A stretch of DNA of 49,801 nt from a virus. Position numbers and translations under genes: made by a program. The stretch covers positions 1-49,801 of IMG/VR virus record IMGVR_UViG_3300049203_000167. The stretch is one strand, 5' to 3'. Below are positions 1-11,513 of the stretch, one piece after another (positions within the stretch are counted from its first letter, which is position 1; every line of letters starts with the position of its first letter). The notes beneath the pieces were generated by a model. It ran no database searches. It was not told where the DNA came from and worked only from the letters and a program-made list of their open reading frames with translations.

Positions 1-126
1 CGTGATGAGCCGCTCGAGATTGTCAATCGCTACGCCCCAGTCAGCCATGGACTTCACGGGCTTGGAACCGGTGACGAGGTTCATGGAGGCCATAGCGAGG
101 CCGGACATGCTGTCCAAGGCCAAAAG
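1..126. repeat. Direct terminal repeat, left copy
   Basis: Bases 1-126 are identical to 49662-49787. The ATPase reading frame passes through the join without a break, so the two copies are the same locus met twice. The length is what a k-mer assembler leaves when it closes a circle, but a true short terminal redundancy would look the same. Seen directly by comparing the two ends. Confidence 0.95.
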
Positions 127-576
127 CGTGTCGGTGCCCCAGGAATCGGCGGCGCCGTAGGTCTGGCCGTTGCGGTCGCTTTTGAAGTTCGCGAGCAGCG
201 TCAAGATACGAATGAACTCGTCGAATTCGCGCTTGTTAATGTCGCTGAGGTCGGCAAGCGCCTTAAACGACATTGAGTTGATCTTCGTGGCGCTGTCGAT
301 CATCTTCGCCCAGTCCGGGGCAGCAGGTGCGACGTACGCCCACTGAATGTTGTCAGGAATGGGCTTGCCGCGGTCCTTGAAGTATTGCCCAACGGTTTCC
401 ATGCCCGGCTCGGTGAACAGGATCCTGACGTTCAAGCCGAGATCGGCAGCCGTACACAGCGCTGTCGTCTTGCCGCTGCCGGTGCCGCCCAGGAGCATAG
501 TCCTGAAGCCGGGGATAAGCGATTTATGGTCGCTGGAAGTCATGCCCGGAATTGGGCTGACAGACGTGGTGGTCAT
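1..576 (-). CDS. Sak4-like RecA-fold ATPase, N-terminal 192 codons (continues at 49661)
   Basis: The ATG at 576 opens a frame that runs off base 1 and continues in frame at 49661, ending with TGA at 49356; the joined protein has 293 residues. Residues 30-37 are a Walker A loop (GGTGSGKT, K36) and LLALDS around D155 is a Walker B strand. The size and the lack of other domains fit the Sak4-type single-strand annealing/recombination ATPases of phages, which work with an SSB-like partner; the SSB-like gene (48098-48538) lies close by in the same operon. The ATG overlaps the TAA of the preceding gene (TAATG), so translation is probably coupled. The fold is clear; the Sak4 role is inferred, and another AAA/RecA ATPase remains possible. 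Confidence 0.8.
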   Translation of the reverse strand, partial: MTTTSVSPIPGMTSSDHKSLIPGFRTMLLGGTGSGKTTALCTAADLGLNVRILFTEPGMETVGQYFKDRGKPIPDNIQWAYVAPAAPDWAKMIDSATKINSMSFKALADLSDINKREFDEFIRILTLLANFKSDRNGQTYGAADSWGTDTLLALDSMSGLAMASMNLVTGSKPVKSMADWGVAIDNLERLIT

Positions 577-764
577 TAGTTTTCCTTTCGAGATTGCTGA
601 CGGTCTTTGATGAGGGTGATGCTGTCGTCGATAGCGTTGACGAGGACGTGGTACACTGTGACTGGAAGGTGAGGGCGAATCCAGTGCTGGACTTTGGTCT
701 TCATGCCGCGCAGGAGATAGATCGCCCAATTTTCTCTGATAGCGCGAATCTGCTTTTTGTTCAT
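576..764 (-). CDS. Small basic hypothetical protein, 62 aa
   Basis: I do not recognise a family. The protein is basic, with a helical N-terminus (MNKKQIRAIRENWAIYLL) and a Lys/Arg-rich C-terminus. AGGAGA lies about six bases before the ATG at 764, and its TAA overlaps the ATG of the ATPase gene, so the two are probably co-translated. Coupling to a recombination ATPase hints at a DNA-related role, but nothing in the sequence proves it. Confidence 0.65.
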   Translation of the reverse strand: MNKKQIRAIRENWAIYLLRGMKTKVQHWIRPHLPVTVYHVLVNAIDDSITLIKDRQQSRKEN

Positions 765-775
765 GCTGGCATCTC

Positions 776-1192
776 CTATCGTTGGGCGGAAATCAATTTG
801 AACACATCACTGGCCTTGCTCGCAATACCCGGCGGTAATTGACCGCTCCCGGCCGCCCATCGTAAGTGGACGAGAAGTTCCCAGCGGATAACGGCGGGGG
901 GCATTTCGGCCAGCAGTTCAGGTTCCCACTCCATCTGCAGGGTTCCGCCGACTTCGCTTGGCCACAAGGACTCCTTGCCCGCGAAACGCTGCTTCCAGCC
1001 GTGGTCGGCGCAGGGCTTGGACCAGACCTGGTGCTCGTAGCCGTCGACGGGGAGTGAGGCCCATAGCTTGCCGCAATGCCGGCAGAAGTAATGGTGGCCT
1101 ATGGGCTTCAGCACGTCGCCGTGAACTTTGCGCCACTTGGCTTCACTCGAGCCCATGTAACTGCCGTTTATGAACCAGTGGCGCTTTGCCAT
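776..1192 (-). CDS. Hypothetical protein with CxxC-type zinc-binding region, 138 aa
   Basis: Residues 36-65 hold a pattern CRHCG ... C-A-D-H that could ligate one zinc ion; the N-terminal part is rich in aromatic and basic residues. The C-terminal half is helical (WELLVHLRWAAG). The start at 1192 overlaps the TAA of the upstream gene (TAATG) and has GGAG upstream. No family is recognised. The zinc-knuckle form suggests nucleic acid binding, which is inference. Confidence 0.75.
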   Translation of the reverse strand: MAKRHWFINGSYMGSSEAKWRKVHGDVLKPIGHHYFCRHCGKLWASLPVDGYEHQVWSKPCADHGWKQRFAGKESLWPSEVGGTLQMEWEPELLAEMPPAVIRWELLVHLRWAAGSGQLPPGIASKASDVFKLISAQR

Positions 1193-1440
1193 TATGCGAT
1201 CTCCGCTGTGTGAATGATGCTGCTCTGTTCGTCACGGATTTTGCAGCGATGCTCGCAAACGCGCAGATGATGGTAATCCTTCGCCGGAACCACATAGGCG
1301 AAGCGATCGCCGATCCACACGCTGGCGCCGGTATCGTGCGCCGTTTCGAGCTTACGATAGTGCATCCAGGTGGAAAACACCATGCCGGCGAGCAAAGCTG
1401 CTGCAATTGCAATGCCGTTGACGAGGATTTCGAGCATCAT
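1192..1440 (-). CDS. Small membrane-anchored protein, 82 aa
   Basis: Residues 3-22 form one hydrophobic segment (EILVNGIAIAAALLAGMVFS), followed by a soluble domain of about 60 residues with two cysteines. This predicts a single-pass inner membrane protein with the C-terminal part on one face. AAGGAG sits eight bases before the ATG at 1440, and the upstream gene's TGA overlaps the start (ATGA). No family recognised. Small membrane proteins in early phage operons often act on the host envelope or exclude other phages, but that is only context. Confidence 0.7.
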   Translation of the reverse strand: MMLEILVNGIAIAAALLAGMVFSTWMHYRKLETAHDTGASVWIGDRFAYVVPAKDYHHLRVCEHRCKIRDEQSSIIHTAEIA

Positions 1441-2438
1441 ACTGCGGTCTCCTTAGGTTGGGTGAGCGCTTCGACTTCGGCTTCACGCTCTTGGTGGATC
1501 ATCGGGTGCCAGACGCGAGCCTCGAAGTTAGCTCGTTTCCAGGTCTGCGGATTCGGACTGTTGCACAGGGACTGGTAGGCGCAACCGCCGTATGCGCCGC
1601 AGGCGCTCTTGTCCAGCTTCCACTCGATCGTGCTGTCGTGAATGCTGTCCTTCCCGTTGCGCCAGATTTCGATCATGCGCTGAACGATCTTGTGCGTTTC
1701 GCGCCACCAGCGGTGGATTTCCCAATCGCTGCGGTAAATAACCGCTTCCTTGGTGTCGTACTTGGTCTTGAGGATGCTCACGCCTCGGATGATGGCTCCG
1801 GCGACTGGCTTTCCGTAGGCTTTGGCTCCGGCGCAATAGCCGGTGAATTGCGAATCAAGCCCCCACTGGTTGCTCCAAGATGTACCAAGCTGAGTTGCTG
1901 TCTTCTCGTCGTCAACGAAGAGGACTCCGCTTCGCTGGTCGACGCCCAGCATGTCAAAGCGTCCAGCATAGAGTATTGGCTGCCCGGATACAGGATGAGA
2001 TATTGACATAGGAAGCGAAAAACTAAACTCGATTCCGTGATTCGCGCCGTCAGTCCAGGGCACGAGATAATCAGAGCCAAGCTTGTATGTGTCAAAATAG
2101 AACTCAAGCGCTCCGGCCATCCGCAAGGCGCTTTTGGCACTGTCTGGTGGGCACTCATAATCTCCATAAAATGCGAGAAGCTTGGCAATACCAATACCAA
2201 TCGCCTCCTCGGCTGGCTTGCCTTCGACATAAAAGGCCTTTCTGGCGTGCTCGATGCCGTAGGCAAAGGCGCCGCCTGCGTGCAGGTGGACGGAAGTGCC
2301 CGTGGGCGACAGGTTTTCGATGTAGCTGTAATAGCCGGCGCCCTCGCACTTCTTGAAGGCGCTGACCATGCTGTTATCGACGACCTCGGGGAAGGGCAGT
2401 TCGCTGCGCGGGGTGTCGAGGATGGATGGAATGGTCAT
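1437..2438 (-). CDS. PD-(D/E)XK exonuclease, Cas4/RecB-like with probable Fe-S cluster, 333 aa
   Basis: The core motifs of the RecB/Cas4 nuclease family are visible: GRFDMLG (D162), the strand VDDEKT (D177, E178, K179) and the following QFTGY (Q197, Y201). One cysteine near the N-terminus (C31) and three near the C-terminus (C280, C286, C292) have the spacing of the 4Fe-4S clamp of Cas4 and AddB nucleases. The expected activity is 5'-3' single- or double-strand DNA resection, feeding the annealing ATPase and SSB-like protein encoded further along the same strand. GGGAGA precedes the ATG, which overlaps the upstream TGA (ATGA). Family assignment is strong; exact polarity and partner are inferred. 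Confidence 0.85.
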   Translation of the reverse strand: MTIPSILDTPRSELPFPEVVDNSMVSAFKKCEGAGYYSYIENLSPTGTSVHLHAGGAFAYGIEHARKAFYVEGKPAEEAIGIGIAKLLAFYGDYECPPDSAKSALRMAGALEFYFDTYKLGSDYLVPWTDGANHGIEFSFSLPMSISHPVSGQPILYAGRFDMLGVDQRSGVLFVDDEKTATQLGTSWSNQWGLDSQFTGYCAGAKAYGKPVAGAIIRGVSILKTKYDTKEAVIYRSDWEIHRWWRETHKIVQRMIEIWRNGKDSIHDSTIEWKLDKSACGAYGGCAYQSLCNSPNPQTWKRANFEARVWHPMIHQEREAEVEALTQPKETAV

Positions 2439-2632
2439 TTGGTCTCCCGGTTAAAGGTTTCGACGATAACTTGGGCGGATTCGAGATCGTCGCGCAGGAC
2501 GATAAAATCAACTGTGGCGTTCGCCGGAACGTTGCAGTGCTGCCGCAGGATCTTTGCAATTTCGGCTGCGGGGAACTCCATTATCTGGCGGGTGGTTGTC
2601 TCCACGGTTGTGGTAGTGGACAAGGTGATCAC
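2435..2632 (-). CDS. Hypothetical protein, 65 aa, GTG start
   Basis: Starts with GTG at 2632, overlapping the upstream TGA (GTGA), with GGAG nine bases before. It has a threonine-rich N-terminus followed by an alpha/beta segment (VDFIVLRDDLESAQVIVETF). Its end overlaps the nuclease start (ATGA), so it is co-translated with the nuclease. No family recognised. Confidence 0.65.
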   Translation of the reverse strand: MITLSTTTTVETTTRQIMEFPAAEIAKILRQHCNVPANATVDFIVLRDDLESAQVIVETFNRETK

Positions 2633-2907
2633 TTGTGTATCTCCGAAAGTTTGCGCATATAAAGCCAGTGCGCTACGATAAGCTCTGATTCCGGGGTGAG
2701 GCGGACATACGATTTCGGAAACCAGATGGGTTCAGATGCCGGGAAGAGGCGGACGAGAAAGGCCTTATGCGTCTCCACAACTACTTCAACCTTGCCGAGG
2801 TTCTTCGGGGGCAGCGGAAGTGGTGTGCCGAACGGTGAGTCGTCCTCGAAGTCGCGCCGCTCGAGGTCTTCCCAAGCGTCGGCTTCGTGATTGAATGTGT
2901 CGCTCAT
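2629..2907 (-). CDS. Hypothetical protein, 92 aa
   Basis: The frame is open further upstream, but that extension is arginine-rich antisense of the neighbouring gene. The ATG at 2907 overlaps the upstream TGA (ATGA) and is the credible start. The N-terminus is acidic (DAWEDLERRDFEDD). The rest contains KVEVVVETHKAFLVR and IWFPKSYVRL, a pattern often seen in small phage proteins that carry a single OB- or Sm-like fold. That fold is a guess; no family is recognised. Confidence 0.65.
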   Translation of the reverse strand: MSDTFNHEADAWEDLERRDFEDDSPFGTPLPLPPKNLGKVEVVVETHKAFLVRLFPASEPIWFPKSYVRLTPESELIVAHWLYMRKLSEIHK

Positions 2908-3089
2908 GCTTCGTCGTCTCCGTGAGTTGTGGTCCAGTGGGCATAGTCGAAAAGGGCAACGGTGTGGCAAGCGGGGCACTTCCAGGCCTCGGCGCCGTCC
3001 ATGAGCTGCTCGTGGTACTCGTGGTGCGTGAGGCCGACGTCGCCGTGGATGGGGCAGAAGAGCTGGGCGTAACGTTCGGTGACGTTCAT
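2904..3089 (-). CDS. Small zinc-ribbon-like protein, 61 aa
   Basis: C12-P-I-H and C38-P-A-C form two knuckles 26 residues apart, as in short zinc ribbons. The ATG at 3089 overlaps the TGA of the upstream gene, and its own TGA overlaps the next ATG, so it sits in a tightly coupled chain. Zinc binding is likely; function unknown. Confidence 0.7.
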   Translation of the reverse strand: MNVTERYAQLFCPIHGDVGLTHHEYHEQLMDGAEAWKCPACHTVALFDYAHWTTTHGDDEA

Positions 3090-3313
3090 AGGCCAAGCCC
3101 CTCGAGTTGCGCATCGAGGTCCTCGTCGCTCACGCCTTTTGCCGCGGCTTTGGTGGCGGTCTTGCGTGTACGGGCTGTGGCTCCGGCCTCGGCGGCACCG
3201 AAACGATTCTGGCGGAGCAGCTTAACGAGCTCAGCTTGTTCGGCTACGGTGAGGTTTTCTCCGGCCAGGACACGTTGCCGGGCCTGATTCAGAGTTTGTT
3301 CCAAAGTTGACAT
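3086..3313 (-). CDS. Small Ala/Thr/Lys-rich helical protein, 75 aa
   Basis: The first gene of a transcription unit, with AAGGAG before the ATG and a promoter/operator directly upstream (3332-3381). It is helical and polar at the N-terminus (LNQARQRVLAGENLTVAEQAELVKLLRQNR), has a basic hinge, and ends in an acidic tail (DEDLDAQLEGLGL). The tail and the RQNRFGAAEAGATARTRK segment recall the C-terminal ends of the two paralogues at 7623-8234 and 10634-11164. No known family. Confidence 0.7.
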   Translation of the reverse strand: MSTLEQTLNQARQRVLAGENLTVAEQAELVKLLRQNRFGAAEAGATARTRKTATKAAAKGVSDEDLDAQLEGLGL

Positions 3314-3331
3314 GATTACTCCTTAGTGGTG

Positions 3332-3365
3332 TGTGGCGGGGTAATGTGGGCATTATACCGCCATA
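3332..3365 (-). promoter_or_regulatory. Operator palindrome copy 1, overlapping the -10 box
   Basis: Read on the minus strand: TATGGCGGTATAAT, six bases, ATTACCCCGCCACA. The arms are imperfect inverted repeats, and the left arm contains the TATAAT of the promoter for the unit starting at 3313. One of seven copies in the genome, all in the same orientation towards the downstream gene. Confidence 0.85.
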
Positions 3366-3381
3366 AAAAGCCAGTGTGCAA
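3352..3381 (-). promoter_or_regulatory. Sigma70-type promoter for the 3313 unit
   Basis: TTGCAC (3376-3381), an 18-base spacer and TATAAT (3352-3357) on the minus strand. About 60 bp around it closely match the promoter at 5775-5804, including GGGGTATTG over the -35 box, so the two are copies of one module. The operator palindrome covers the -10 box, so bound protein would block or remodel RNA polymerase. Confidence 0.8.
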
Positions 3382-3396
3382 TACCCCGGCGGATTG

Positions 3397-3783
3397 TTAA
3401 GTACCGGGGGCGTCTGGCGTTTTCTTCCAGATGCTGTTCGCGCCGGAGGTTACGCTTGCCGGCTGAGGTACCGGAGAGGGAACTTGCGTTGGTTGCGGCG
3501 GCTTGATGATTTCGCGCTCGGCTCGCGCCGGATCGTAGCGCCTGCGTTTGATCTCGCTGTAACGGTTCACGAGCTGCGGCACGCTTTCCGTGCTGTCGTA
3601 AAAGCTTCCGTTTGTGAGTTGCACGCGAGTGAGGTGGCGCGCCGGCTGTTCGTCGCTCAGAAAGGCAACGAAACCTTCGATGAGATTCAGTTCAACGGCG
3701 GCGAAGCCGTCAGGCGAGGTAAAGCAAAGAAAGTCCGTTTGATCTGGCGAGAACGGAAATGTGGCAACTGGATTAAAGGGCAT
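3397..3783 (-). CDS. Hypothetical protein, 128 aa, proline-rich C-terminus
   Basis: A compact alpha/beta N-terminal part (residues 1-80) is followed by a proline-rich tail (PPQPTQVPSPVPQP). AGGAG lies eight bases upstream of the ATG at 3783. It is the last gene of the unit that begins at 5736; the next promoter starts just past its stop. No family recognised. Confidence 0.7.
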   Translation of the reverse strand: MPFNPVATFPFSPDQTDFLCFTSPDGFAAVELNLIEGFVAFLSDEQPARHLTRVQLTNGSFYDSTESVPQLVNRYSEIKRRRYDPARAEREIIKPPQPTQVPSPVPQPASVTSGANSIWKKTPDAPGT

Positions 3784-3793
3784 GGCGGTGCTC

Positions 3794-4153
3794 CTAGTGA
3801 AAAATGGTGTCGGAATTCATCTGATCCGGCGGCATGTTGCGGAGCTCGGCTTCCTGCGCAGCGGCGGCTTGCCGGGCCGCGATGGCACTTGGCATGAAAT
3901 AACCGTTGAGCTCGCGAACAATGTCAGCGAGGATAGGTACGGCAAGTATGCCGGGCAGCTCGCCGGTTTGACGCGCGAGCCGGAACATATCGCCAAAGCC
4001 AGTCATGTACATGAGCTTGAGGTTGTACAGCAAGCGCGGGTCAACGTCCGGGCCGAGGATTTCTTTTACAATCGCTTGTTGATGCAGCCAGTTGGCTTCG
4101 AGCGTGAAGGCGACTGAATCGAAAGGGTTGAAGCTGGATTTTTCGTCAGACAT
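3794..4153 (-). CDS. Hypothetical helical protein, 119 aa
   Basis: The start MSDEKSS at 4153 follows AAGAGA; an ATG 18 bases further up has no ribosome site. It is mostly helical and hydrophobic (YNLKLMYMTGFGDMFRLARQ, ILAVPILADIVRELNGYF), though no segment is long enough to call transmembrane with confidence. No family recognised. Confidence 0.65.
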   Translation of the reverse strand: MSDEKSSFNPFDSVAFTLEANWLHQQAIVKEILGPDVDPRLLYNLKLMYMTGFGDMFRLARQTGELPGILAVPILADIVRELNGYFMPSAIAARQAAAAQEAELRNMPPDQMNSDTIFH

Positions 4154-4164
4154 GATAGGTTCTC

Positions 4165-4401
4165 TTACCAAGGTTGATCTTCCACGCGGTTGTCGATGAT
4201 GAGCTTGTCGTTTTCCGTGTGAGCCTGGAAGTAGCGCCGGAGATCGGTGCCCATGAGCTTACGAAGTTGCCGCGCGCTCATTTCGAACTGCTCCATGATG
4301 GTGCGCTCTTTGTTGTAGACGAGGACATGCGGCACGCTGTTGTTAGTGACGATGGGCTGTTGCATCTTGACGATGCCTTGCCAGTTATGTTTCTTGGGCA
4401 T
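4165..4401 (-). CDS. Hypothetical protein, 78 aa
   Basis: AAGGAGG six bases before the ATG at 4401 fixes the start, which lies 17 bases inside the previous gene in another frame. It is polar and charged with no cysteine pairs or clear motif; residues 36-58 (MEQFEMSARQLRKLMGTDLRRYF) look like two short helices. Function unknown. Confidence 0.65.
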   Translation of the reverse strand: MPKKHNWQGIVKMQQPIVTNNSVPHVLVYNKERTIMEQFEMSARQLRKLMGTDLRRYFQAHTENDKLIIDNRVEDQPW

Positions 4402-4612
4402 GCCCGGCCTCCTTTTCGCGGTTGTACTCTTCGCGCAAGAGCCGGTTGACCAGCTCGCTGAGGGCGCCTTTGCGGGTCTTGCCGGTGAAGGTGTCCATGT
4501 GCTTCAGGCGGAAATGCGTCGAAAGGTCGAGGTCCACGCTCACGTGCCAGTCATCGGAAGGAATGGCCTTTTTGGGGGCGCCGCGATTGCTCTTGTAAGG
4601 TGCATCAGACAT
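4385..4612 (-). CDS. Ribbon-helix-helix-like small DNA-binding protein, 75 aa
   Basis: After a basic N-terminal arm, residues 22-30 form a short strand (WHVSVDLDL), followed by STHFRLKHMDTFTG, then KTRKGALSELVNRLLREEYNRE. Strand-helix-turn-helix of this length is the layout of Arc/MetJ-type ribbon-helix-helix repressors, which bind palindromic DNA as dimers or tetramers. GGGGGTGG precedes the ATG at 4612. It sits in an operon driven by a promoter covered by an operator palindrome, so it may be the regulator of the seven palindromes and of its own operon. The fold is a reading of the sequence pattern; the target is inference. Confidence 0.55.
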   Translation of the reverse strand: MSDAPYKSNRGAPKKAIPSDDWHVSVDLDLSTHFRLKHMDTFTGKTRKGALSELVNRLLREEYNREKEAGHAQET

Positions 4613-5054
4613 GATCCACCCCCAGGAGTACGTGCGCGTTGTAAGCCACCTCGACCACGCTTTCGAGCGTCGGCCCGTGGAAGATCGTGCCGTTGTGCTT
4701 GAGCCGGTAGCCCTGAATGTCGCCGTTGTAGTCGAGGATCGCGCCGTGAGTGCGGAGCAGTTGGCGCAGGCAGTCGAAGTGGTTCGTTCCGGCTGCGCGC
4801 CCGATCTCGTCTACGATTGCGGTGTTCGCCTCGTTGCCGACGATGAAGCTCGGTTCCGTAAAGGCGATCTCACGCGCATCGGGGTTGAAGGGACCGAGTT
4901 GCGCCTCGGCGAGCATCGTGTGGTGGTGCTGGCCTGTGACGTCGGTGAGTTCGCCGTCGCCGCTTGCGATGAGCATGTCGCGCTCGTCTTCGTTGTGAGC
5001 GTACATGTAGGTTTCGCTCTCGGGATGGTAGAGGATGAAGTGCTCTTGTGTCAT
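4605..5054 (-). CDS. Hypothetical protein, 149 aa
   Basis: A soluble, acidic protein, His-rich in places (GQHHHTMLAEAQLG). Two halves are visible: residues 1-45 (HFILYHPESETYMYAHNEDE) and a C-terminal alpha/beta part (LRTHGAILDYNGDIQGYRLK). The ATG at 5054 overlaps the upstream TGA (ATGA). No family recognised. Confidence 0.7.
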   Translation of the reverse strand: MTQEHFILYHPESETYMYAHNEDERDMLIASGDGELTDVTGQHHHTMLAEAQLGPFNPDAREIAFTEPSFIVGNEANTAIVDEIGRAAGTNHFDCLRQLLRTHGAILDYNGDIQGYRLKHNGTIFHGPTLESVVEVAYNAHVLLGVDHV

Positions 5055-5281
5055 GCTGTGAACTCCTCGATGCGCTTGAGCACGCTGACCCGTACCGGAG
5101 AAGGCACTGGCGGTACTTCGTAGTTGTGTACGTTGGTCAGACGCTGCCGCACAAGGTTAAGAAAATCTTGTTCGTTCATCTCAGGGATTTTTTCGCAGGT
5201 GACGCGCAGTTCATACGTGGTCTTCTTGTTGCGGGCGCGACCTTGGCGCTTTGTAACGGGGTTTTGAGGGCTGAGGCTCAT
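5051..5281 (-). CDS. Hypothetical protein, 76 aa
   Basis: AAGGAG eight bases before the ATG at 5281 fixes the start. A basic N-terminal arm (NPVTKRQGRARNKKTTYELR) precedes a helical part (EQDFLNLVRQRLTNVHNYEV). It ends overlapping the next ATG (ATGA). A small nucleic-acid-binding protein is possible from the charge pattern; unproven. Confidence 0.65.
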   Translation of the reverse strand: MSLSPQNPVTKRQGRARNKKTTYELRVTCEKIPEMNEQDFLNLVRQRLTNVHNYEVPPVPSPVRVSVLKRIEEFTA

Positions 5282-5292
5282 GTTGTGGCTCC

Positions 5293-5736
5293 TTAAAGGC
5301 CAGGGATTTCGAGTCCGTCGGTCGGCGGCTCGGTTTGAAGGACTGCTGCGTGGAAGCAGCAGGGGCAAAGATCAATGTCTTGTGTCGTTTCCTTGATGAC
5401 ACGAGGTTTGGTGGCGAAGTCGTGCGGCACGGAAAGCTTATCGTGGCGGCGCTCGCGCGTCACGCCGTTCGGAGTCATTTCGCCGAGGAACAGGCCCTCA
5501 ACGCTTTGCGCTTGCAGGCCGCAACGGCAGCGTTGCGTGTTGATAACGAGCGTGACGCTGTGCGGGAGCCAGGTCGGAGTAATTTTCGGAAGGTCTTGCC
5601 AAGCTTGCTTTGGCTTTTGCGTCTTGCTCTTTGCGGGCGCCGCGCGCTTGAGGTCGCGGTCGAGTTCGCTCATGAAGTCGCCGAGATCATCGAAGTCGTC
5701 GGTGAGCGCTGTGGTGGGGTTGGAACCTGTGGTCAT
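5293..5736 (-). CDS. Hypothetical zinc-binding protein, 147 aa, first gene of its unit
   Basis: CRCG (about residues 69-72) and CPCC (about 124-127) form two cysteine knuckles flanking a beta-rich core, a likely zinc site. The N-terminus is acidic and low in complexity (DDFDDLGDFMSELDRD). AGGAGG lies five bases upstream of the ATG at 5736, directly after the promoter/operator at 5755-5804. No family recognised. Confidence 0.7.
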   Translation of the reverse strand: MTTGSNPTTALTDDFDDLGDFMSELDRDLKRAAPAKSKTQKPKQAWQDLPKITPTWLPHSVTLVINTQRCRCGLQAQSVEGLFLGEMTPNGVTRERRHDKLSVPHDFATKPRVIKETTQDIDLCPCCFHAAVLQTEPPTDGLEIPGL

Positions 5737-5754
5737 GTGGCCTCCTGCGGTATG

Positions 5755-5788
5755 TGTGGCGGGGTAATGTTGTAATTATAACGCCATA
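5755..5788 (-). promoter_or_regulatory. Operator palindrome copy 2, overlapping the -10 box
   Basis: Minus strand: TATGGCGTTATAAT, six bases, ATTACCCCGCCACA. The right arm is perfect to the consensus; the left arm carries TATAAT. Same orientation relative to its gene as the other six copies. Confidence 0.85.
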
Positions 5789-5804
5789 AAAATCAAGGTG
5801 TCAA
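5775..5804 (-). promoter_or_regulatory. Consensus sigma70 promoter for the 5736 unit
   Basis: TTGACA (5799-5804), 18 bases and TATAAT (5775-5780) on the minus strand: both boxes match the consensus exactly. It should be very strong unless repressed through the overlapping palindrome. Confidence 0.88.
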
Positions 5805-5825
5805 TACCCCGCCGCAATGCGCAGT

Positions 5826-6170
5826 TTAAATGCGGTCTTCTGGCGGCTGCGAATTGAAGCTGGCGGCAATGGCGTCCTGCCACTTGTACCAGGTGTCGCG
5901 GGGGATCCAGCGGGTAATGTCGGAGCCCCGGCGAATGAGCATGGCTTGGGTGTCGTCGTCGACGTCAGTGAAGATCGCATCATGCGCTGTGAGGCACTTG
6001 AAGCATTCAACGTCGAGGCGCCCGACCGTGGGTTGCAGTAGGCCTTTGGTGCTGACCCGGTACAGGACATGAACGTGCACCTTGTCGTTGTAGAACTCGC
6101 GGCATTCGGCCAGGTCTGCGTCCTGCATCTCGAGCGTGAGGTCGTCGATGAAGTTAGTTTGGCGGTTCAT
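5826..6170 (-). CDS. Hypothetical protein, 114 aa
   Basis: A soluble acidic protein with two cysteines in CFKC (about residues 56-59). The ATG at 6170 has GGAGAC upstream and overlaps the previous gene by 17 bases. It is the last gene of the unit that starts at 7446. Function unknown. Confidence 0.7.
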   Translation of the reverse strand: MNRQTNFIDDLTLEMQDADLAECREFYNDKVHVHVLYRVSTKGLLQPTVGRLDVECFKCLTAHDAIFTDVDDDTQAMLIRRGSDITRWIPRDTWYKWQDAIAASFNSQPPEDRI

Positions 6171-6621
6171 TGTCGTCTCCTGGTTTGCCGACCGCGTCGA
6201 GCAGCGTGTCGATCAGATTGGGCGAAGCTGGGGTTTCGTGTGGAACGTCAGGCAGCGTAGGTGCAGTTTCGAAGGGCACGCTGGTGAGGGTGGTGGCTGC
6301 GGCACCTGGCACGGGAATGTTCATGTGCTTGAGCGCGGCCTCGAGCCCTTCATCGAGTTCCGTAACCTGCTGTTCGGTGCGCAGCTGGAACCGGATGGTG
6401 CTGTCCTTGACCATGATTACTATCCGATCGATGCGGTCACCGAAGTGAGCGGCTTCGCCGGGGTTGCGGCGCAGGAACTTCAGGAAGTTGTAGAAGCGAA
6501 GGCGCTCAGTTGCGGCTGCAGTGGGGCTCGAAAGCGTGATTTCGAGTGGAGTGCCGTCGGCTGGTGTGCCCGCCAGGATGCGGGTGTACGCCAGCGGATA
6601 GCGTGCGAGCTTGCTTTTCAT
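6154..6621 (-). CDS. Hypothetical protein, 155 aa
   Basis: Residues 1-95 form an alpha/beta domain (RLRFYNFLKFLRR, RIDRIVIMVKDSTIRFQLR); residues 100-155 are a low-complexity Pro/Ala/Thr tail. GGAGA precedes the ATG at 6621, which overlaps the TGA of the 50-residue gene before it. No family recognised. Confidence 0.7.
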   Translation of the reverse strand: MKSKLARYPLAYTRILAGTPADGTPLEITLSSPTAAATERLRFYNFLKFLRRNPGEAAHFGDRIDRIVIMVKDSTIRFQLRTEQQVTELDEGLEAALKHMNIPVPGAAATTLTSVPFETAPTLPDVPHETPASPNLIDTLLDAVGKPGDDNEPPN

Positions 6622-6770
6622 TGCGGTTCTCCGGATATGTAGCGGTCGAGGCAGTAACCGACATCAATGTGCCACTGTTCGTAACGGCCGAGAAAGGCAT
6701 CACCGATGTACTGGCAATCGGAAAGAGCGTTAAGTGGCCGCCAGATGAAGTAAATGTGCGTGTACTTCAT
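6618..6770 (-). CDS. Tiny hypothetical protein, 50 aa
   Basis: The minus-strand frame starts at the ATG at 6770 and reads MKYTHIYFIWRPLNAL ... RYISGEPQ, ending in TGA. Both ends overlap neighbours by ATGA, exactly filling the gap between 6767 and 6621, which is the same coupling style as the rest of the operon. It is rich in aromatic residues (Y, W, F). No family recognised. Confidence 0.7.
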   Translation of the reverse strand: MKYTHIYFIWRPLNALSDCQYIGDAFLGRYEQWHIDVGYCLDRYISGEPQ

Positions 6771-7120
6771 AGGACTTTCTCCAGTATGGGGCGCAAAGCT
6801 TCGAAAAAGCGAAGTTGTGCGCCGGGCGTGGCGCAGGTGACGTCGAGCGTGTCGGGCTCGTAGCCTGCGTTGTGTACGAGCAGGTCGAATTCGCTCGAAC
6901 GGCTGATGAGGAGTGCGCGATGCGGCCAGCCGTCGAAGAGGACCTTGAGCAGGCAGCCGTGAGGATGTTCGAGGAGCTTAAGGCTCCAGGCGGACATGAG
7001 GGCGCGAGCGTAACGCGGGGGAAACGCTATGCGGTATGTTCCTGGGCCGAACAGGACCTCGTTGCGCGCGGCGATGAAGAGGCGCGAAGGGCCATAGGTG
7101 GTGAGTGCCTCGGGTCTCAT
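6767..7120 (-). CDS. Hypothetical protein, 117 aa
   Basis: A basic N-terminal half and an alpha/beta C-terminal half (GCLLKVLFDGWPHRALLISR). The ATG at 7120 overlaps the upstream TGA and its TGA overlaps the next ATG. No motif recognised. Confidence 0.7.
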   Translation of the reverse strand: MRPEALTTYGPSRLFIAARNEVLFGPGTYRIAFPPRYARALMSAWSLKLLEHPHGCLLKVLFDGWPHRALLISRSSEFDLLVHNAGYEPDTLDVTCATPGAQLRFFEALRPILEKVL

Positions 7121-7446
7121 ACAGGCATTCCGATTTCGTCAATGGCACGTTGGGTAAGCTTGTACACGGGGGCTGCGACACATCCGTTGCATATAGCATC
7201 GACCATCCCGTACTCGATCACACCGGCTTCGAGCAGCACCTGTCTGCAGCCCATGTTCTCACCCCAGGTTTTGAGTGCGATCAGCGGGGCAGCGAGCGGC
7301 TTGTTCATGTTTACGGTGTAAGTGCACCACGCTTCGCCGGTCTCGCCGTCGCTGCCGCGCAGGCACAGATTACCGTTCTCGGCATAGTGGTGTAGTGTAA
7401 GGCGAATGGGCGAGGTATTGCCGTAACGCTTGTCTTCGATAAGCAT
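7117..7446 (-). CDS. DUF4313-like protein, 109 aa
   Basis: The pattern of a short beta sheet (RLTLHHYAENGNLCLRG), then AWCTYTVNM, then KTWGENMGCRQVLLEAGVIE resembles the small DUF4313 proteins found on plasmids and phages, whose function is unknown. AAGGAG lies nine bases before the ATG at 7446. It is the first gene of its unit, behind the promoter at 7484-7513. The family call rests on remembered pattern only. Confidence 0.65.
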   Translation of the reverse strand: MLIEDKRYGNTSPIRLTLHHYAENGNLCLRGSDGETGEAWCTYTVNMNKPLAAPLIALKTWGENMGCRQVLLEAGVIEYGMVDAICNGCVAAPVYKLTQRAIDEIGMPV

Positions 7447-7483
7447 GGTAGTGGCTCCTTGAATGGCGGAATTGCCATGTTTT

Positions 7484-7513
7484 TATATTGCCACATTTCC
7501 ATGTAGGTGTCAA
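7484..7513 (-). promoter_or_regulatory. Sigma70-type promoter for the 7446 unit
   Basis: TTGACA (7508-7513), 18 bases and AATATA (7484-7489) on the minus strand. There is no operator palindrome here; the spacer and leader instead carry the ATGGCAAT / TGGCAATAT words found in the repeat block at 10182-10633. Confidence 0.65.
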
Positions 7514-7534
7514 GCGAACCCTCGTGTGTAGAGC

Positions 7535-7566
7535 AAAAAACCCCAGGCACATTGCTGCACCTGGGG
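7535..7566 (-). terminator. Rho-independent terminator after the 7623-8234 gene
   Basis: On the minus strand a perfect 7-bp stem CCCCAGG / CCTGGGG with a 12-base loop is followed by six T. It separates the 7623-8234 gene from the next promoter, isolating it as a single-gene unit. Confidence 0.9.
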
Positions 7567-7622
7567 CTGGAAACCTCAGCCGGTTCCGGCGACTGAGGGG
7601 AGACACACAAGGAGGTGTTGCG

Positions 7623-8234
7623 TTACGCCGGCGTTTCTTCCGCTGCGTCGAGATCCAGGCCTTCGAGATCGTCGCTGGCCGTGTTGCCGTCTTTGGCTGC
7701 AGCTTCCTCGGCGGCCTTGGCACGTGCCGCAGCTTTTTCGGCGCGGATCTCGGCGATGATCGCCTTGATCTTTGCGTTGGCACGCCAGGCTTTGACCTGC
7801 TCGTCGGTGGCTTTCGCCACGACCGCGTTGGCCTTCTCGATCGGGGCAGACTTGAAGCGGGCAATGGCTTCGGCCAGTTCGGTGACCTTGCTGCCGCCTT
7901 CGCCGCCTTCGCGCGCTTGCTTCCATTCGCCGGCCATGAGCTGCTTGAGGACGGCTTCGAACTTGTTTTTCGCTGCGAGAACGTCGCCCTTGACGGACGC
8001 ATACGAATCACCGAGCTTCTGCGAAAGGCCGTGGAGTGCCAGCAGCGTCACGATGTTCGAGGGCAGGCTTTCGAGTGCGACTTCGGCCTTGGCGCCGTCG
8101 GCGAAGACAATGCTGAAAACCTTTGCCTCTTCGTCGTAGTCTTTGCGTGCGACCTTGATGCGGCCGCTTGCGCTGGTCGGGCCTGTGGCGAATTCGGTGG
8201 AGGTTTCGGTGGTGGCGGCTTGATCTTGAGACAT
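7623..8234 (-). CDS. Alanine-rich helical protein, paralogue of 10634-11164, 203 aa
   Basis: AGGAGA precedes the ATG at 8234. Residues 1-80 contain a beta-rich domain (KVFSIVFADGAKAEVALESLP). Residues 130-190 are a long helix with KATDEQVKAWRANAKIKAII, and the C-terminus is acidic. The helix matches the protein at 10634-11164 (KATEEQRKAWSKNAQVAALI there) at many positions, so the two are diverged copies. Each stands alone between its own promoter and terminator, which suggests high, independent expression. I know no function for this family; abundance plus acidic tail would fit a DNA mimic, a nucleoid-type protein or an SSB-like binder. Confidence 0.8.
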   Translation of the reverse strand: MSQDQAATTETSTEFATGPTSASGRIKVARKDYDEEAKVFSIVFADGAKAEVALESLPSNIVTLLALHGLSQKLGDSYASVKGDVLAAKNKFEAVLKQLMAGEWKQAREGGEGGSKVTELAEAIARFKSAPIEKANAVVAKATDEQVKAWRANAKIKAIIAEIRAEKAAARAKAAEEAAAKDGNTASDDLEGLDLDAAEETPA

Positions 8235-8301
8235 GTTGATCTCCTGAAGGAAAGTAAGGTAAGGTGGTATGCGCTGGAACCGTTTGTCCGTCGCATGATT
8301 C

Positions 8302-8330
8302 AATGTAACATGCCTTTTGGTGTATGTCAA
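8302..8330 (-). promoter_or_regulatory. Sigma70-type promoter for the 8234 gene
   Basis: TTGACA (8325-8330), 17 bases and TACATT (8302-8307) on the minus strand, about 70 bases before the ATG. A second TTGACA on the plus strand at 8335-8340 makes a small inverted pair (TTGACA / TGTCAA) around the -35 box. Confidence 0.75.
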
Positions 8331-8381
8331 CCCCTTGACACGAAAATTTTGCGCGTGGAGTTGCACGTGAGTGGTGCTCGT

Positions 8382-8404
8382 AAAAAAGCCCGCACGAGGC
8401 GGGC
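8382..8404 (-). terminator. Rho-independent terminator after the 8431-8706 gene
   Basis: Minus strand GCCCGC, 5-base loop, GCGGGC, followed by six T; 27 bases past the stop of the 91-residue gene. Confidence 0.9.
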
Positions 8405-8430
8405 AAAGGCTGCGACACACAGGAAAATGG

Positions 8431-8706
8431 TCATTGGGCTGTGAGTGCCGTGGGGAGTGGTGTTCCGGCTGGAGCGATGAGTATTGTGGGCGGCATGAGG
8501 GCGAGTGTGCGCTGCGTGGCATGACGCTTTGGGTTCAGGAGTTGCAGGAGGCTTTTGTCTGCGCGTGCGTTGGCCAGGTGGAATTCGCGCCACTGAGGGT
8601 CGCTGATGGCTCGGGCCTCTTCGTGCTGGAGGTCGCGGCGCAGGGCATGAAGGAGCGCCTCGCGCTCGTAGTCGAAGAGTTGTGAAAGTGCTTGAGGTGC
8701 GTTCAT
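8431..8706 (-). CDS. Hypothetical helical protein, 91 aa
   Basis: GGAG eight bases before the ATG at 8706 supports this start over one four codons upstream. Helical and charged in residues 1-60 (FDYEREALLHALRRDLQHEE), then a hydrophobic, proline-containing tail. It is the last gene before a terminator and may be a single-gene unit from the promoter at 8795-8824. No family recognised. Confidence 0.7.
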   Translation of the reverse strand: MNAPQALSQLFDYEREALLHALRRDLQHEEARAISDPQWREFHLANARADKSLLQLLNPKRHATQRTLALMPPTILIAPAGTPLPTALTAQ

Positions 8707-8794
8707 GGTAAGCTCCATTCCGATTGTTGTGGCTCTTTTCCCCTTATTGCTCCCGTTGCTGCTGGTGTTGTTGTTGCTCCTTCACCGTATGGTC

Positions 8795-8824
8795 ATTATA
8801 CCGGGAGGTGTGCCCGGCTGGCAA
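8795..8824 (-). promoter_or_regulatory. Sigma70-type promoter for the 8706 gene
   Basis: TTGCCA (8819-8824), 18 bases and TATAAT (8795-8800) on the minus strand. The spacer contains CCGGGCACACCTCCCGG, an interrupted dyad that could be a separate operator. Confidence 0.75.
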
Positions 8825-8880
8825 TATGTTTCGGCGCAGGGCATGTTCGAGCAGTGAACTGTTTCCTGCGGGAAATGCGC

Positions 8881-9207
8881 TCAATGACAGTCGGCGTATT
8901 GCGTATGGAAGTGAAAGTCCATTGCTTGCAGCCATGCGTGGCCGGTGACGATCTGCAGGTTGCCGAAGCCGTCATCGGCGTAGCTGAGCGTGTGAAGGTG
9001 CCAATGCTGGCTGTCGTAAAGGCGCGTAACGTGCCCTTCGTAGTGGTACTGGCCTGCGATTGTGCCTGCTGCCCAATCAAGTATGGGATTGTTCGGGTCG
9101 TCGTGCCAGCGATTGCTGTCGTCGAGCAGGTCACCTCGCGGGTAGATGTTCCAGCCCAGTTCGGTGCGGCCTGTGCGGTCGAGGTACTCTTGTGTGCATT
9201 TTGGCAT
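8881..9207 (-). CDS. Hypothetical His/Trp-rich protein, 108 aa
   Basis: GGAG lies upstream of the ATG at 9207. The protein is rich in His, Trp, Tyr and Asp (NRWHDDPNNPILDWAAG, SQHWHLHTLSYADDG), like a small soluble beta protein; the many histidines could bind a metal. No family recognised. It follows the 9223-9471 gene by 15 bases. Confidence 0.7.
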   Translation of the reverse strand: MPKCTQEYLDRTGRTELGWNIYPRGDLLDDSNRWHDDPNNPILDWAAGTIAGQYHYEGHVTRLYDSQHWHLHTLSYADDGFGNLQIVTGHAWLQAMDFHFHTQYADCH

Positions 9208-9222
9208 GATTTGCTCCGTGTA

Positions 9223-9471
9223 TTAAAAGGTGAAGTGACGTGCCGCGGTTGCAACTTCGAGTGCGAGGTTGAGTGTAAGGCCTGTGATTTCGCCTATGTA
9301 ACCTCGTGTGCTTGAAATGGCAATGATCCAGCCTGTGGCCGTGAGTGTGGCTGTGTACTCGAAGGGGCTGTTGCCCTTCATGCCAGTACCCTGAATGACG
9401 GTTGCGTTGCGAATGTCGCAGGTGGCGATGGCACTCACCATCACGTTGTCGTAGTTCCAAGCTGTGCGCAT
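9223..9471 (-). CDS. Hypothetical beta-rich protein, 82 aa
   Basis: The ATG at 9471 has AGGAG upstream and lies just behind operator copy 3, so it opens a transcription unit. The sequence alternates small hydrophobic and polar residues (EYTATLTATGWIIAISSTRG), suggesting a small beta sandwich. No family recognised. Confidence 0.7.
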   Translation of the reverse strand: MRTAWNYDNVMVSAIATCDIRNATVIQGTGMKGNSPFEYTATLTATGWIIAISSTRGYIGEITGLTLNLALEVATAARHFTF

Positions 9472-9490
9472 GGTATGCTCCTGTGGATTG

Positions 9491-9523
9491 TGTGGAGGGG
9501 TAACGGTGAATTACCCCGCCATA
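9491..9523 (-). promoter_or_regulatory. Operator palindrome copy 3 with weak promoter
   Basis: Minus strand: TATGGCGGGGTAAT, five bases, GTTACCCCTCCACA. A possible -10 is GGTAAT within the left arm, with TAGACT 17 bases before it as -35. This is a much poorer promoter than copies 1 and 2, so it may need activation by the bound protein. Confidence 0.75.
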
Positions 9524-9530
9524 TTGCGTT

Positions 9531-9731
9531 TCAGTCTACGTAATGCCCCAGGTTGTACATCAGTCTGGCGATGTCACGTGAGGTGGTGAAGTCCTCGCGG
9601 AGGGTCTTGAGGCCTGTGCTCGCATCTGCGTAACTCACGTGGAAGACCGTAAGGCCTTCTGTGTGTGCCGGCAGGTCGAGGTAACGAGGCCCGAGGGTGA
9701 GGCTTGGCTGTGGCTGTGGCTGATGTGTCAT
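9531..9731 (-). CDS. Hypothetical protein, 66 aa
   Basis: GGAGG eight bases before the ATG at 9731, which overlaps the TGA of the 59-residue gene upstream. Pro/Gln-rich start, then alpha/beta (GLTVFHVSYADASTGLKTLR). Function unknown. Confidence 0.65.
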   Translation of the reverse strand: MTHQPQPQPSLTLGPRYLDLPAHTEGLTVFHVSYADASTGLKTLREDFTTSRDIARLMYNLGHYVD

Positions 9732-9907
9732 TGCTTTGTCCTCCGTGCCGTGCCAATGATGTACAGCGCTGCCTCGACGCTCCAGCCGCGCAGGGCCATG
9801 TAGCGTGCTGCGGTGAACGGGCCAAGACTGCGTGCGATGCTGCGTGCTCGGGCCATTTGCTGCAACTTCTCGCAGCGGAATGTGTATGCTTCTTTAAGGG
9901 CGCCCAT
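9728..9907 (-). CDS. Small basic helical protein, 59 aa
   Basis: The minus-strand frame from the ATG at 9907 reads MGALKEAYTFRCEKL ... GTARRTKQ and ends in TGA overlapping the next ATG. AAGGAG lies eight bases upstream. The arginine-rich helix (QQMARARSIARSLG) followed by RYMALRGWSVEAALYI recalls small helical proteins found in several podophages, of unknown role. Confidence 0.75.
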   Translation of the reverse strand: MGALKEAYTFRCEKLQQMARARSIARSLGPFTAARYMALRGWSVEAALYIIGTARRTKQ

Positions 9908-9908
9908 G

Positions 9909-10181
9909 TTACATCTCCTTCAGTACGTCCAACACCAAGACCTGTGCGGGAAAGCCTTCGATACCGCTCAGGCTTAAACTCATGGTCAGGAACCGGATTC
10001 GCGGCCGCAGGCTCATAATACCCTTGCCCTGCGCCTCGACAGCTCCGCAGCCCTTTGCAAGTTCGATTGCGAGGGCGTGACGGATTGCCTTATACCTGGC
10101 TGTTCCGAGCCATGCCTTGCAGTCGGCCAGGGCCGCGCTCCATTTGCCGGGGCCTTTGTACTTCCGTGTGTAGTGTGTCAT
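9909..10181 (-). CDS. Hypothetical basic protein, 90 aa
   Basis: AAGGAG eight bases before MTHYTRKYKG at 10181 fixes the start; upstream the frame runs only through repeat words. Basic N-terminal third, helical middle (WLGTARYKAIRHALAIELAKG), hydrophobic C-terminus. It follows the repeat block 10182-10633 and is the first gene of its unit. No family recognised. Confidence 0.7.
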   Translation of the reverse strand: MTHYTRKYKGPGKWSAALADCKAWLGTARYKAIRHALAIELAKGCGAVEAQGKGIMSLRPRIRFLTMSLSLSGIEGFPAQVLVLDVLKEM

Positions 10182-10633
10182 GCTCTTTCTCCTTGTGTGG
10201 CAATGTGGAAATGTGGTATTGCCGGATAGCCCTTGCCTTATAGCCATCCCATAGCCACGCTGTCGTATAGCCCAGTGTGGCTATGCCATGTCTATAGCCA
10301 TAATGCCGTGGCAATGCCGTGCCAATGGCACATTGTGGCTGTAGTGGGTGCCTTGTAGCCGCCCCGTGCCGTGGTATTGCCATGTAGAGGTAGTTATCAT
10401 TCTCATAACAAAAAAAATTCAACTAATAATCTTCACACCCACTATAGGGCAAAATAGCTACGGGGGTGGTGGCTACATTGCACCCACTATGGCCATAATG
10501 TAGCTATGCCATATTGCCACCGTATAGCCGTGTATTGCCATCTCGTTGCCACATAGCCATGCATACCTACCTGGCTATCTGGTAACACGGCTACGGGACA
10601 TTGCCATCTTCACCCCGTAGCCGTATTGCCCCG
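10182..10633. repeat. Noncoding block of short repeated words with an AT-rich core; possible origin
   Basis: 452 bases with no credible gene. The plus strand carries about nine TAGCC words, four GGCTA words and many TTGCCA/TGGCAA words, often as ATAGCCATG-like units, plus two copies of CACCCACTAT and one of CACCCACTAC on the other strand. Near the middle, 10391-10433 is strongly AT-rich (a run of eight A inside). Iteron-like words around an AT-rich stretch, in the early arm, are what a replication origin looks like; dense protein-binding sites for another purpose are the alternative. Origin function is inference. Confidence 0.5.
10587..10624. terminator. 11-bp perfect inverted repeat after the 10634 gene
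   Basis: ACGGCTACGGG and CCCGTAGCCGT flank a 16-base loop, ten bases past the stop of the gene at 10634. There is no T-tract, so it is not a classical terminator. It may stop or protect the transcript's end, or be part of the repeat block, since its arms are made of the same GGCTAC/GTAGCC words. Confidence 0.5.
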
Positions 10634-11164
10634 TTACTCTTCGCCCTCGTCGAGCCCGAAGTCCAAATCCTCGTCCTTCGTGCCCTTCTCGGCGGCCGCT
10701 GCGAGCCGTTCTGCCTTGTACTTCGCGATGAGCGCCGCAACTTGCGCGTTTTTGCTCCACGCTTTGCGCTGCTCTTCGGTAGCCTTCGAAACCGCCGCCA
10801 TTGCCCGCTCCTCGGAGGTCTTCTTCATCTCCGCGATAGCCTTGGCGAGGTCCTCCATATTCACACCGGCTCCAGCGCCTCCTCCCTGCCTGTTCCAAGT
10901 ATTGTTGTACAGGCTTTGGATAACTTCACCCATTTCCTCGCGCGCTCCAGCAAAATCCTGCTCCTTGCTGTAGCCCGCAGCGCTGTCCCGTACCTTCTGG
11001 TTGAAGCCGTGGAACATTGCCCGAGTGCGCATGTCCTCACTGCAACGATCAGTGTCAAGCGTCAACCTGCCCTTATCGCCGAACTCGAAGATCAGCGTAT
11101 TGCCGTTCTGCTTGACTTCCAGAAACTTTGCCTTTGCCGGTGCTTGGTCTTTAGCCTTCGTCAT
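10634..11164 (-). CDS. Helical protein, paralogue of 7623-8234, 176 aa; first leftward gene
   Basis: AAGGAG seven bases before the ATG at 11164. An N-terminal beta region (NTLIFEFGDKGRLTLDTD) is followed by a long helical part with LAKAIAEMKKTSEERAMAAV and KATEEQRKAWSKNAQ, and an acidic tail (DEDLDFGLDEGEE). Order of parts and the shared helix identify it as a paralogue of 7623-8234. It is the first full gene of the leftward arm, behind a good promoter and a roughly 200-base leader, so it should be among the earliest and most abundant products. Function unknown; an acidic-tailed abundant early protein could bind nucleic acid or mimic it. Confidence 0.8.
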   Translation of the reverse strand: MTKAKDQAPAKAKFLEVKQNGNTLIFEFGDKGRLTLDTDRCSEDMRTRAMFHGFNQKVRDSAAGYSKEQDFAGAREEMGEVIQSLYNNTWNRQGGGAGAGVNMEDLAKAIAEMKKTSEERAMAAVSKATEEQRKAWSKNAQVAALIAKYKAERLAAAAEKGTKDEDLDFGLDEGEE

Positions 11165-11278
11165 GATGCTCTCCTTATGTGTGTCTGGGCAACAGTGCCC
11201 GAAAAGGAGCCCGGAACTTCCCAGGCTCAATCCGTGCCTTGCTGCTGAGCATTCGAGCCAATACACCTATCCAGATTG

Positions 11279-11368
11279 TTAAAGAGAGCCGCGTGTCGCA
11301 GTGTGCCGGTATCCCGCGCGTACCTCGTGCGCCGCTTGGCGGGGAAGCTCGTCATGCGTTGCTTCCAT
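11279..11368 (-). CDS. Possible leaderless 29-aa leader ORF
   Basis: The ATG at 11368 lies seven bases after the TATAAT box, exactly where transcription should start. It begins a 29-codon frame (MEATHDELPRQAAHEV ...) ending in TAA in the long leader of the 11164 gene. There is no ribosome site because no leader would exist. It may be a leaderless leader peptide or a chance frame; no other support. Confidence 0.3.
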   Translation of the reverse strand: MEATHDELPRQAAHEVRAGYRHTATRGSL

Positions 11369-11374
11369 GAATTC

Positions 11375-11402
11375 ATTATACACCACTGCGCCCGAAGTGC
11401 AA
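11375..11402 (-). promoter_or_regulatory. Early leftward promoter
   Basis: TTGCAC (11397-11402), 16 bases and TATAAT (11375-11380) on the minus strand. It is the only clear leftward promoter of the divergent control region 11165-11637 and lies about 80 bases from operator copy 4. The 200-base leader that follows contains a small GAGCC/GGCTC dyad near 11200-11225. Confidence 0.7.
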
Positions 11403-11480
11403 GCCCCTCCCGCCCCCCAGCGAGGGTTGAAAATCGCTCAGGTAGTGCCACTCGGGGCGCTGCGCAACTTGCCGGAATTA

Positions 11481-11513
11481 TATGGCGGCATAATTCCGCA
11501 TTACCCCTCCACA
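11481..11513 (+). promoter_or_regulatory. Operator palindrome copy 4, ahead of the packaging operon
   Basis: TATGGCGGCATAAT, five bases, ATTACCCCTCCACA on the plus strand, oriented towards TerS. The left arm offers CATAAT as -10 but no good -35 stands at the right distance, so late transcription here may need an activator. Downstream, before TerS, are a GCGCGC-rich stretch and the palindrome GGCACT-CGA-AGTGCC at 11545-11559. Together with the leftward promoter this fills the 473-base gap 11165-11637. Confidence 0.8.

Follow-up and report, generated by a model that had tools for sequence, protein, structure and literature searches.

Why should a phage genome carry an exact consensus promoter that overlaps a palindrome repeated at six other places, and what is the function of this palindrome? 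The question is raised by one locus of the window, which is the whole stretch of DNA analyzed here, a virus record of 49.8 kb. The ends of the record repeat (positions 1-126 are identical to 49662-49787), and for this reason the window was read as a circle of about 49.66 kb. The repeated ends are followed by 14 unmatched bases, and the record resembles a circular map with a faulty end. Among the genes searched for, the window contains those of the large terminase, a head-tail adaptor or portal protein, the major head protein, DNA polymerase and primase, as well as a ParB-like methylase and a virion protein of 2134 amino acid residues with a transglycosylase domain. In our gene calls the leftward genes occupy roughly 1-11.2 kb and 41.9-49.8 kb, the rightward (structural) genes occupy 11.6-41.9 kb, and the non-coding share is 4.8%.

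Several other features of this layout were recorded. Two paralogous early-region proteins with acidic tails and no assigned function are encoded at 7623-8234 and 10634-11164 (minus strand); two copies are present in 16 of the 20 genomes where the first search found these proteins. A dense array of TGGCAAT/ATTGCCA and TAGCC/GGCTA repeats occupies non-coding DNA at 10195-10560, with inverted copies at 46097-46163; it may be an origin or else another repeat element with no relation to the palindromes. A stem resembling an intrinsic terminator, followed by a T-run, is located at 19114-19135 (plus strand), directly 3' of the capsid gene. The open reading frame of the 2134-residue protein (35537-41941) had prompted the idea of an N4-type virion RNA polymerase with hairpin promoters, which was dropped. 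Its family matches are transglycosylases, tail fibre, baseplate hub and proteins of unknown kind, and its PDB matches are lytic transglycosylases and not a polymerase. A Pfam search of 48 genomes for a single-subunit RNA polymerase was empty, but its positive control gave no match either, and the search therefore carries no weight.

Seven near-identical palindromes are found in the window:

3334-3363, minus strand: palindrome copy 1, 20 nt before the ATG of ORF 3086-3313
5757-5786, minus strand: palindrome copy 2, with 12-bp arms and a 6-bp spacer, 20 nt before the ATG of ORF 5293-5736
9493-9521, minus strand: palindrome copy 3, 21 nt before the ATG of ORF 9223-9471, with no overlapping promoter found
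11483-11511, plus strand: palindrome copy 4, with 126 nt between it and the gene that opens the rightward (late) operon
17856-17885, plus strand: palindrome copy 5, separated by 20 nt from the major capsid gene downstream
28038-28066, plus strand: palindrome copy 6, 15 nt before the virion protein gene 28082-29683
43209-43237, minus strand: palindrome copy 7, within the 54-bp gap that precedes the primase gene 41926-43188

All seven are intergenic, none overlapping a gene in our gene calls, and six of them lie 15-21 nt from the downstream ATG, copy 4 being the exception. Read toward the downstream gene, the consensus is TGGCGGGGTAAT-N5/6-ATTACCCC(G/T)CCA with few changes per copy, and the spacer between the arms varies from 5 to 6 bp among the copies. 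The sequence of copy 2 is TGGCGTTATAAT-TACAAC-ATTACCCCGCCA. The elements associated with promoters are the following:

5799-5804, minus strand: -35 box TTGACA of copy 2, part of a 12/12 promoter with an 18-bp spacer
5775-5780, minus strand: -10 box TATAAT of copy 2, inside the palindrome arm
5803-5814, minus strand: extra half-site CGGCGGGGTATT, matching the half-site at 10 of 12 positions, 28 bp upstream of copy 2 and overlapping the start of the -35 box
3352-3380, minus strand: promoter of copy 1, TGCACA-17-TATAAT, 10/12
11576-11604, plus strand: promoter of the rightward operon, TTGCCA-17-TATAGT, with 105 bp between its -10 centre and the middle of copy 4

The original prediction had described the two boxes of copy 2 as exact consensus with the -10 box in the palindrome, and this was confirmed, the -10 box being within the promoter-proximal arm. 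The promoter (5804-5775, minus strand) is the sole 12/12 match to the sigma70 consensus in positions 1-20000, the part scanned. By arithmetic, about 0.02 such matches would be expected by chance in 49.7 kb, for equal base frequencies, spacers of 16-18 and both strands. Copy 1, described there as almost the same over about 60 bp, has 74% identity to copy 2 over 91 bp; its -35 box can also be read from the sequence as TTGCAC at 18 bp from TATAAT. In both copies a part of the arm TGGCGGGGTAAT has TATAAT in place of GGTAAT, and copy 1 also has an extra half-site 28 bp upstream near the -35 box (9/12 by eye). Copies 3-7, as had been stated, keep the palindrome without good promoter boxes: the scan gave no overlapping sigma70 match of at least 10/12, and a 9/12 match starts 4 bp beyond copy 5. 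The promoter downstream of copy 4 was absent from the prediction. It is important to note that all promoter scans use the E. coli sigma70 consensus, which may not be that of the host.

Protein scans with the capsid and the primase gave 87 and 88 relatives, respectively, with the best 80 of each kept; within these, the best named relatives have a capsid protein identity of 56%. DNA searches of phage records with the stretches 9000-12700 and 17880-26000 of the window gave no match, a scan for relatives with the virion protein gave nothing useful, and an exact scan of viral contigs for the palindrome gave 11 stretches. The genomes read were 61, namely the window, 58 IMG/VR records picked for length and two named phages; they form 53 DNA clusters and are therefore not independent. 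The symmetric motif search returned one palindrome family per genome, which was subjected to a loose test (at least four sites and 1.4 times the best of three shuffles) and a strict test (at least five sites and twice the best shuffle). A genome-specific family was found in 50 of the 61 genomes by the loose test, a count that takes in low-information motifs, and in 37 by the strict test; when DNA-similar genomes are counted once, these values become 44/53 and 34/53. Among the six control phages PaP2, Kuura, T7, lambda, LUZ24 and phiKMV, one passes the loose test (Kuura, a distant relative) and none passes the strict test. Reversed genomes pass about equally (52/61) and are unusable as a control, because a palindrome remains a palindrome when reversed. 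By script no family was found in 11 genomes (G002, G034, G012, G016, VS3, G014, G020, G035, G040, G044 and G053), some of which are fragments. The script retains six of the seven window copies; it drops copy 2, a poorer fit, which is consequently outside the counts of 313 sites given below.

Many related phages share this kind of element, with a sequence that differs in most of them beyond close relatives. Operator sequence is common to close relatives (G001 and G004, G022 and G023), and that of the window resembles those of G005 and G008. The closest contigs (66-67% for capsid or primase, among the best 80 kept) have a different palindrome, GGGGGnnnTTnATTC with its complement, which in three of them is located directly before the capsid gene, like copy 5. 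The 37 genomes of the strict set fall into 32 operator types at a half-site similarity of 0.9 and into 22 at 0.8, while by eye many half-sites have an inner GG-N-TTA-like core with differing outer bases. Each of these genomes carries 5-10 sites, which are two-fold palindromes of about 27-32 bp, and 37 of their 256 sites are inside named genes, compared with 33% of random positions.

The positions also recur. The gene for a small-terminase-like protein has a palindrome at most 250 bp upstream in 29 of 45 genomes; for the ORF-3086 and ORF-5293 families the corresponding counts are 18 of 44 and 12 of 40. Palindromes also occur at gene ends: 26 of 50 genomes have one where a gene of the ORF-7623 family ends, and 11 of 17 have one where the capsid gene ends. 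A palindrome precedes the capsid gene in one of these 17, the window. An element of shared kind and varying sequence points to a shared but changeable master regulator. No earlier description of this palindrome system was found in the literature searched.

The relation to promoters was evaluated over all sites. Of 313 sites, 39 (12.5%) have a sigma70 promoter of at least 10/12 by the E. coli consensus no more than 45 bp from their centre, while the same scan gave 1.7% for shuffled site windows and 1.0% for random ones (939 of each). Four of the 39 are 12/12 matches, with copy 2 excluded. With one genome per DNA cluster the count is 34 of 279 sites, and in the strict set it is 31 of 256 sites against 16 of 1280 control positions outside named genes. 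The -10 centres of the 39 promoters are located between -24 and +7 in 38 cases and at +42 in one. They peak at -17/-18 (8 cases) and at +5 (14 cases), with a looser group at about -6, so that the peaks are spaced by roughly one helical turn, a regularity that is partly built in because the arms themselves often contain TAAT. Downstream of 33 of the 39, on the same strand and within 1.9 kb, a named family is found that is non-structural every time (ORFs 3086, 5293 and 7623, ribbon-helix-helix-like, RecA-like and exonuclease-like genes); the other six have none listed. Judged by location and type, the genes that follow these promoters are presumably early. The differing registers would lead to the same outcome, which suits steric repression better than activation, since the latter usually needs a fixed geometry.

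The original observation at copy 2 is thus correct and is part of something wider than had been described. The element, its conservation at the level of DNA, its recurring positions and its proximity to promoters far above the controls are direct observations. We propose that a dimeric regulator encoded by the phage uses the palindrome as its operator to shut off early promoters, and assign to this reading a probability of about 0.66; repression of early promoters appears to be the best-supported function of the palindrome. We infer from sequence that a phage protein binds the palindrome, that binding represses and which protein this is; the sign of regulation is deduced from position. According to the proposed mechanism, a sequence-specific phage protein would read the two inverted half-sites. 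At copies 1 and 2 the palindrome would cover the central part of promoters used by the host RNA polymerase, and the bound protein would block the polymerase and turn the early leftward genes off. The genes controlled by copy 2 would include the run encoding a candidate regulator, which may result in delayed autorepression:

4385-4612, minus strand: ribbon-helix-helix-like protein of 75 residues in the gene run behind copy 2, candidate regulator

Operators of one kind, placed at similar types of gene boundary and different in sequence between most phages, would represent a multi-site regulon across the lineage. The spacer of either 5 or 6 bp within one genome is unusual for a rigid dimer and speaks against this reading. 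Promoter repression cannot account for most sites, because 206 of 307 have no promoter of at least 9/12 from -60 to +130, the -35 positions there being at background level. The promoter-less copies 3, 5, 6 and 7 might most simply be a roadblock to elongation, although for such copies roadblocking appears as likely as activation. Copy 4 may act on the promoter 11576-11604, where activation is possible.

This brings in an alternative, a dual switch like that of phi29 p4, in which one regulator represses the early promoters that it overlaps and activates the late-operon promoter from upstream. The original prediction was of this type, with repression of strong early promoters and activation of weak ones. 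Its first half fits the promoters found at 39 of 313 sites, while activation is backed at one class of sites, namely those with promoters 60-105 bp downstream. A scan of 301 sites, 300 bp to either side, gave 14 promoters (at least 10/12) whose -10 centre is in this range, at +60 (2), +71 to +73 (6), +86 (1), +98 to +101 (3) and +105 (2), and for 9 of the 14 the next named gene is that of the small-terminase-like protein. Of the 31 terminase-side sites, 12 (one of which is copy 4) have a promoter of at least 9/12 between palindrome and gene, compared with 2.9% of shuffles; the other 19 have none. An activator could be accommodated at such a position, and these sites are the strongest argument for the dual switch. 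By arithmetic, the commonest spacing corresponds to about 83 bp from the palindrome centre to the start of transcription downstream. However, the distances range over 45 bp, and in the window the centre is about 115 bp before the expected start. The downstream group is also not the sole off-centre one, as 8 promoters occur at about -105 to -140 and a few farther in both directions, and copies 3, 6 and 7 have no detected promoter to activate. A late promoter of the phi29 type has a poor -35 box, and that of the window is TTGCCA; as the scan requires at least 4/6 in both boxes, promoters with a poor -35 box would be missed and the weakness of promoters of the copy-4 type is not readable from it.

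According to PMC3100819, phi29 p4 both represses and activates, acting from inverted-repeat sites on the early promoters A2b and A2c, which it represses, and on the late promoter A3, which it activates. The window is similar in having inverted repeats over promoters of the host-polymerase type, judged to be early, and upstream of a putative late promoter. The phi29 sites are located between A2c and A3, whereas the palindromes of the window are not confined to the early/late promoter region and span the whole genome, occurring also before capsid, tail and primase genes. A dual switch of this type is a possibility that we consider somewhat doubtful.

The two thirds of sites without a detected promoter would suit palindromes that resemble stoperators, i.e., bound sites away from promoters that halt elongation and thereby silence the genome or block a second phage. 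PMC6550527 and PMC9283540 describe dispersed stoperators in the cluster A mycobacteriophages, with a motif that varies between phages. Like the sites of L5 and Bxb1, those described here are numerous, short and intergenic, located in short gaps just before genes, with one class over early promoters and a sequence that differs between most relatives. Unlike them, they are palindromes of about 27-32 bp and not asymmetric 13-mers, and the strict-set genomes have 5-10 of them compared with 20-30. No tyrosine-integrase family was found in the window or in any of the 47 relatives searched, and a single HTH_3 protein was found among 48 genomes, so that these searches gave no sign of lysogeny, to which other routes are conceivable. 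The genus of PaP2, Jamesmcgillvirus, occurs in a paper on a phage termed probably pseudolysogenic (PMC13348215); PaP2 is a distant relative that has no palindrome family by script, and this link therefore bears only loosely on silencing. A stoperator-like system of this kind is rather unlikely. By analogy, the system may work like a mixture of phi29 p4 and cluster A, differing from the former by its genome-wide sites and from the latter by its palindromic ones.

If the palindrome is an operator that shuts early promoters, the ribbon-helix-helix-like protein is the leading but unproven candidate for its regulator. Ribbon-helix-helix repressors bind two-fold operators over promoters. The family of ORF 4385-4612 is found in 51 of 61 genomes, and in G003 its gene is the first behind a promoter bearing the operator. 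A profile of 41 members gave as its best PDB match a ribbon-helix-helix of the CopG type (E=0.014), followed by NikR and EndoAI (above 0.3). Each of four Pfam ribbon-helix-helix models is matched by one or two of the 41 members, and none by the protein of the window. The predicted monomer has an extended N-terminal part and two helices, and the fold search with this model gave no significant match. A conserved protein of this kind in the early region recalls repressors of the Arc/NikR type, but binding here is putative and covariation with the palindrome is not supportive. The whole-protein partial correlation for this family is 0.19, which does not favour it, and its alternating-residue triples rank 30 of 2216. 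The operators of the window and G005 are near-identical while the strands in the ribbon-helix-helix-like proteins are unlike, the G005 protein being a marginal match.

Covariation as a route to the regulator was abandoned. It had been followed in rounds with 12 or 23 genomes by eye, with 16-18 genomes in a test of protein windows, and then with 40-49 genomes. The test with 16-18 genomes gave 0.54 for the ParB-like region, 0.50 for the helix-turn-helix of the terminase-like protein and 0.54 for a primase window. In the largest round the helix-turn-helix region fell to at most 0.22, the ParB-like signal also shrank, the top windows (0.36 each) came from the exonuclease-like protein and from the C-terminal region of the terminase-like one, and no family was singled out. 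A zinc-ribbon-like protein at 776-1192 (minus strand) has a whole-protein partial correlation of 0.34 with the operator, a value above those of the 11 further families in the test.

The small-terminase-like protein and the ParB-like methylase are the alternatives as regulator. The former has a helix-turn-helix-like region and, as described above, its gene often follows a palindrome. Its fold matches are all weak (E above 0.2), and because one of them is phBC6A51, which we take to be a phage protein of the small-terminase kind, it was not adopted as the regulator. The methylase (46680-48026, minus strand) combines a ParB N-terminal domain (ParB_N, GERRLRA motif) and an N6/N4 DNA methylase in one protein, has by eye a ParB-like helical region, and has family members in 59 of 61 genomes. 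This fusion, its wide occurrence and the value of 0.54 in the smaller test would suit palindromes that serve as its loading or recognition sites, as parS or KorB operators do. KorB of IncP plasmids is a ParB-family protein with multiple dispersed operators, and the window is alike in having such a protein and dispersed sites. The KorB sites are 13 bp without a long spacer, however, and the phage protein is fused to a methylase. The half-sites of parS are adjacent, and those of the palindrome are about 20 bp apart. The covariation dropped to 0.24 with more genomes, within the range of other families, and in 48 genomes the 250 bp on either side of the gene contain no palindrome. This use of the palindromes is improbable.

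The weakest alternative, that the palindrome is an RNA stem-loop in the 5' leader acting on mRNA stability, translation or termination, is very improbable: six of the seven copies are close to a start codon and would fold, and the pair is kept in 6 of the 9 double arm deviations, but the copies of the window have no following T-run, the predicted transcript of copy 2 begins within the palindrome, and 243 single-arm deviations at informative arm positions of the lineage leave the position unpaired or at best G-U. Matched double changes do not exceed expectation (6 observed, against 15.9 if the arms vary independently; 3 others are unmatched), a shortfall that is no evidence alone because the site-finding threshold disfavours double changes. 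In the window the deviations are 18 single and none double. The weight against RNA rests on the 243 single changes left unpaired, to which a stem made of RNA should be resistant, and the mostly uncompensated changes suggest a DNA site rather than an RNA hairpin.

The broader picture is tentative, and as a whole we regard it as unlikely. In it an apparently virulent lineage would combine early shut-off and late start through one multi-copy palindromic operator and one conserved regulator of changing specificity, with private codes in many of its phages that exclude co-infecting relatives. If the operator reading is right, the repeated palindrome reveals candidate early and late promoters, so that control in this large and almost uncultured lineage of phages would be largely readable from sequence. 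The operator keeps its shape and many of its positions and changes its sequence, and this would provide dozens of natural variants in which the co-change of a regulator and its regulon can be followed. Such changes of specificity have been studied so far in temperate immunity repressors, for example in the cluster A mycobacteriophages. Private operator codes, if true, would mean exclusion between co-infecting relatives, that is, immunity groups without lysogeny, and the system allows a direct test of whether lytic phages exclude each other by operator type.
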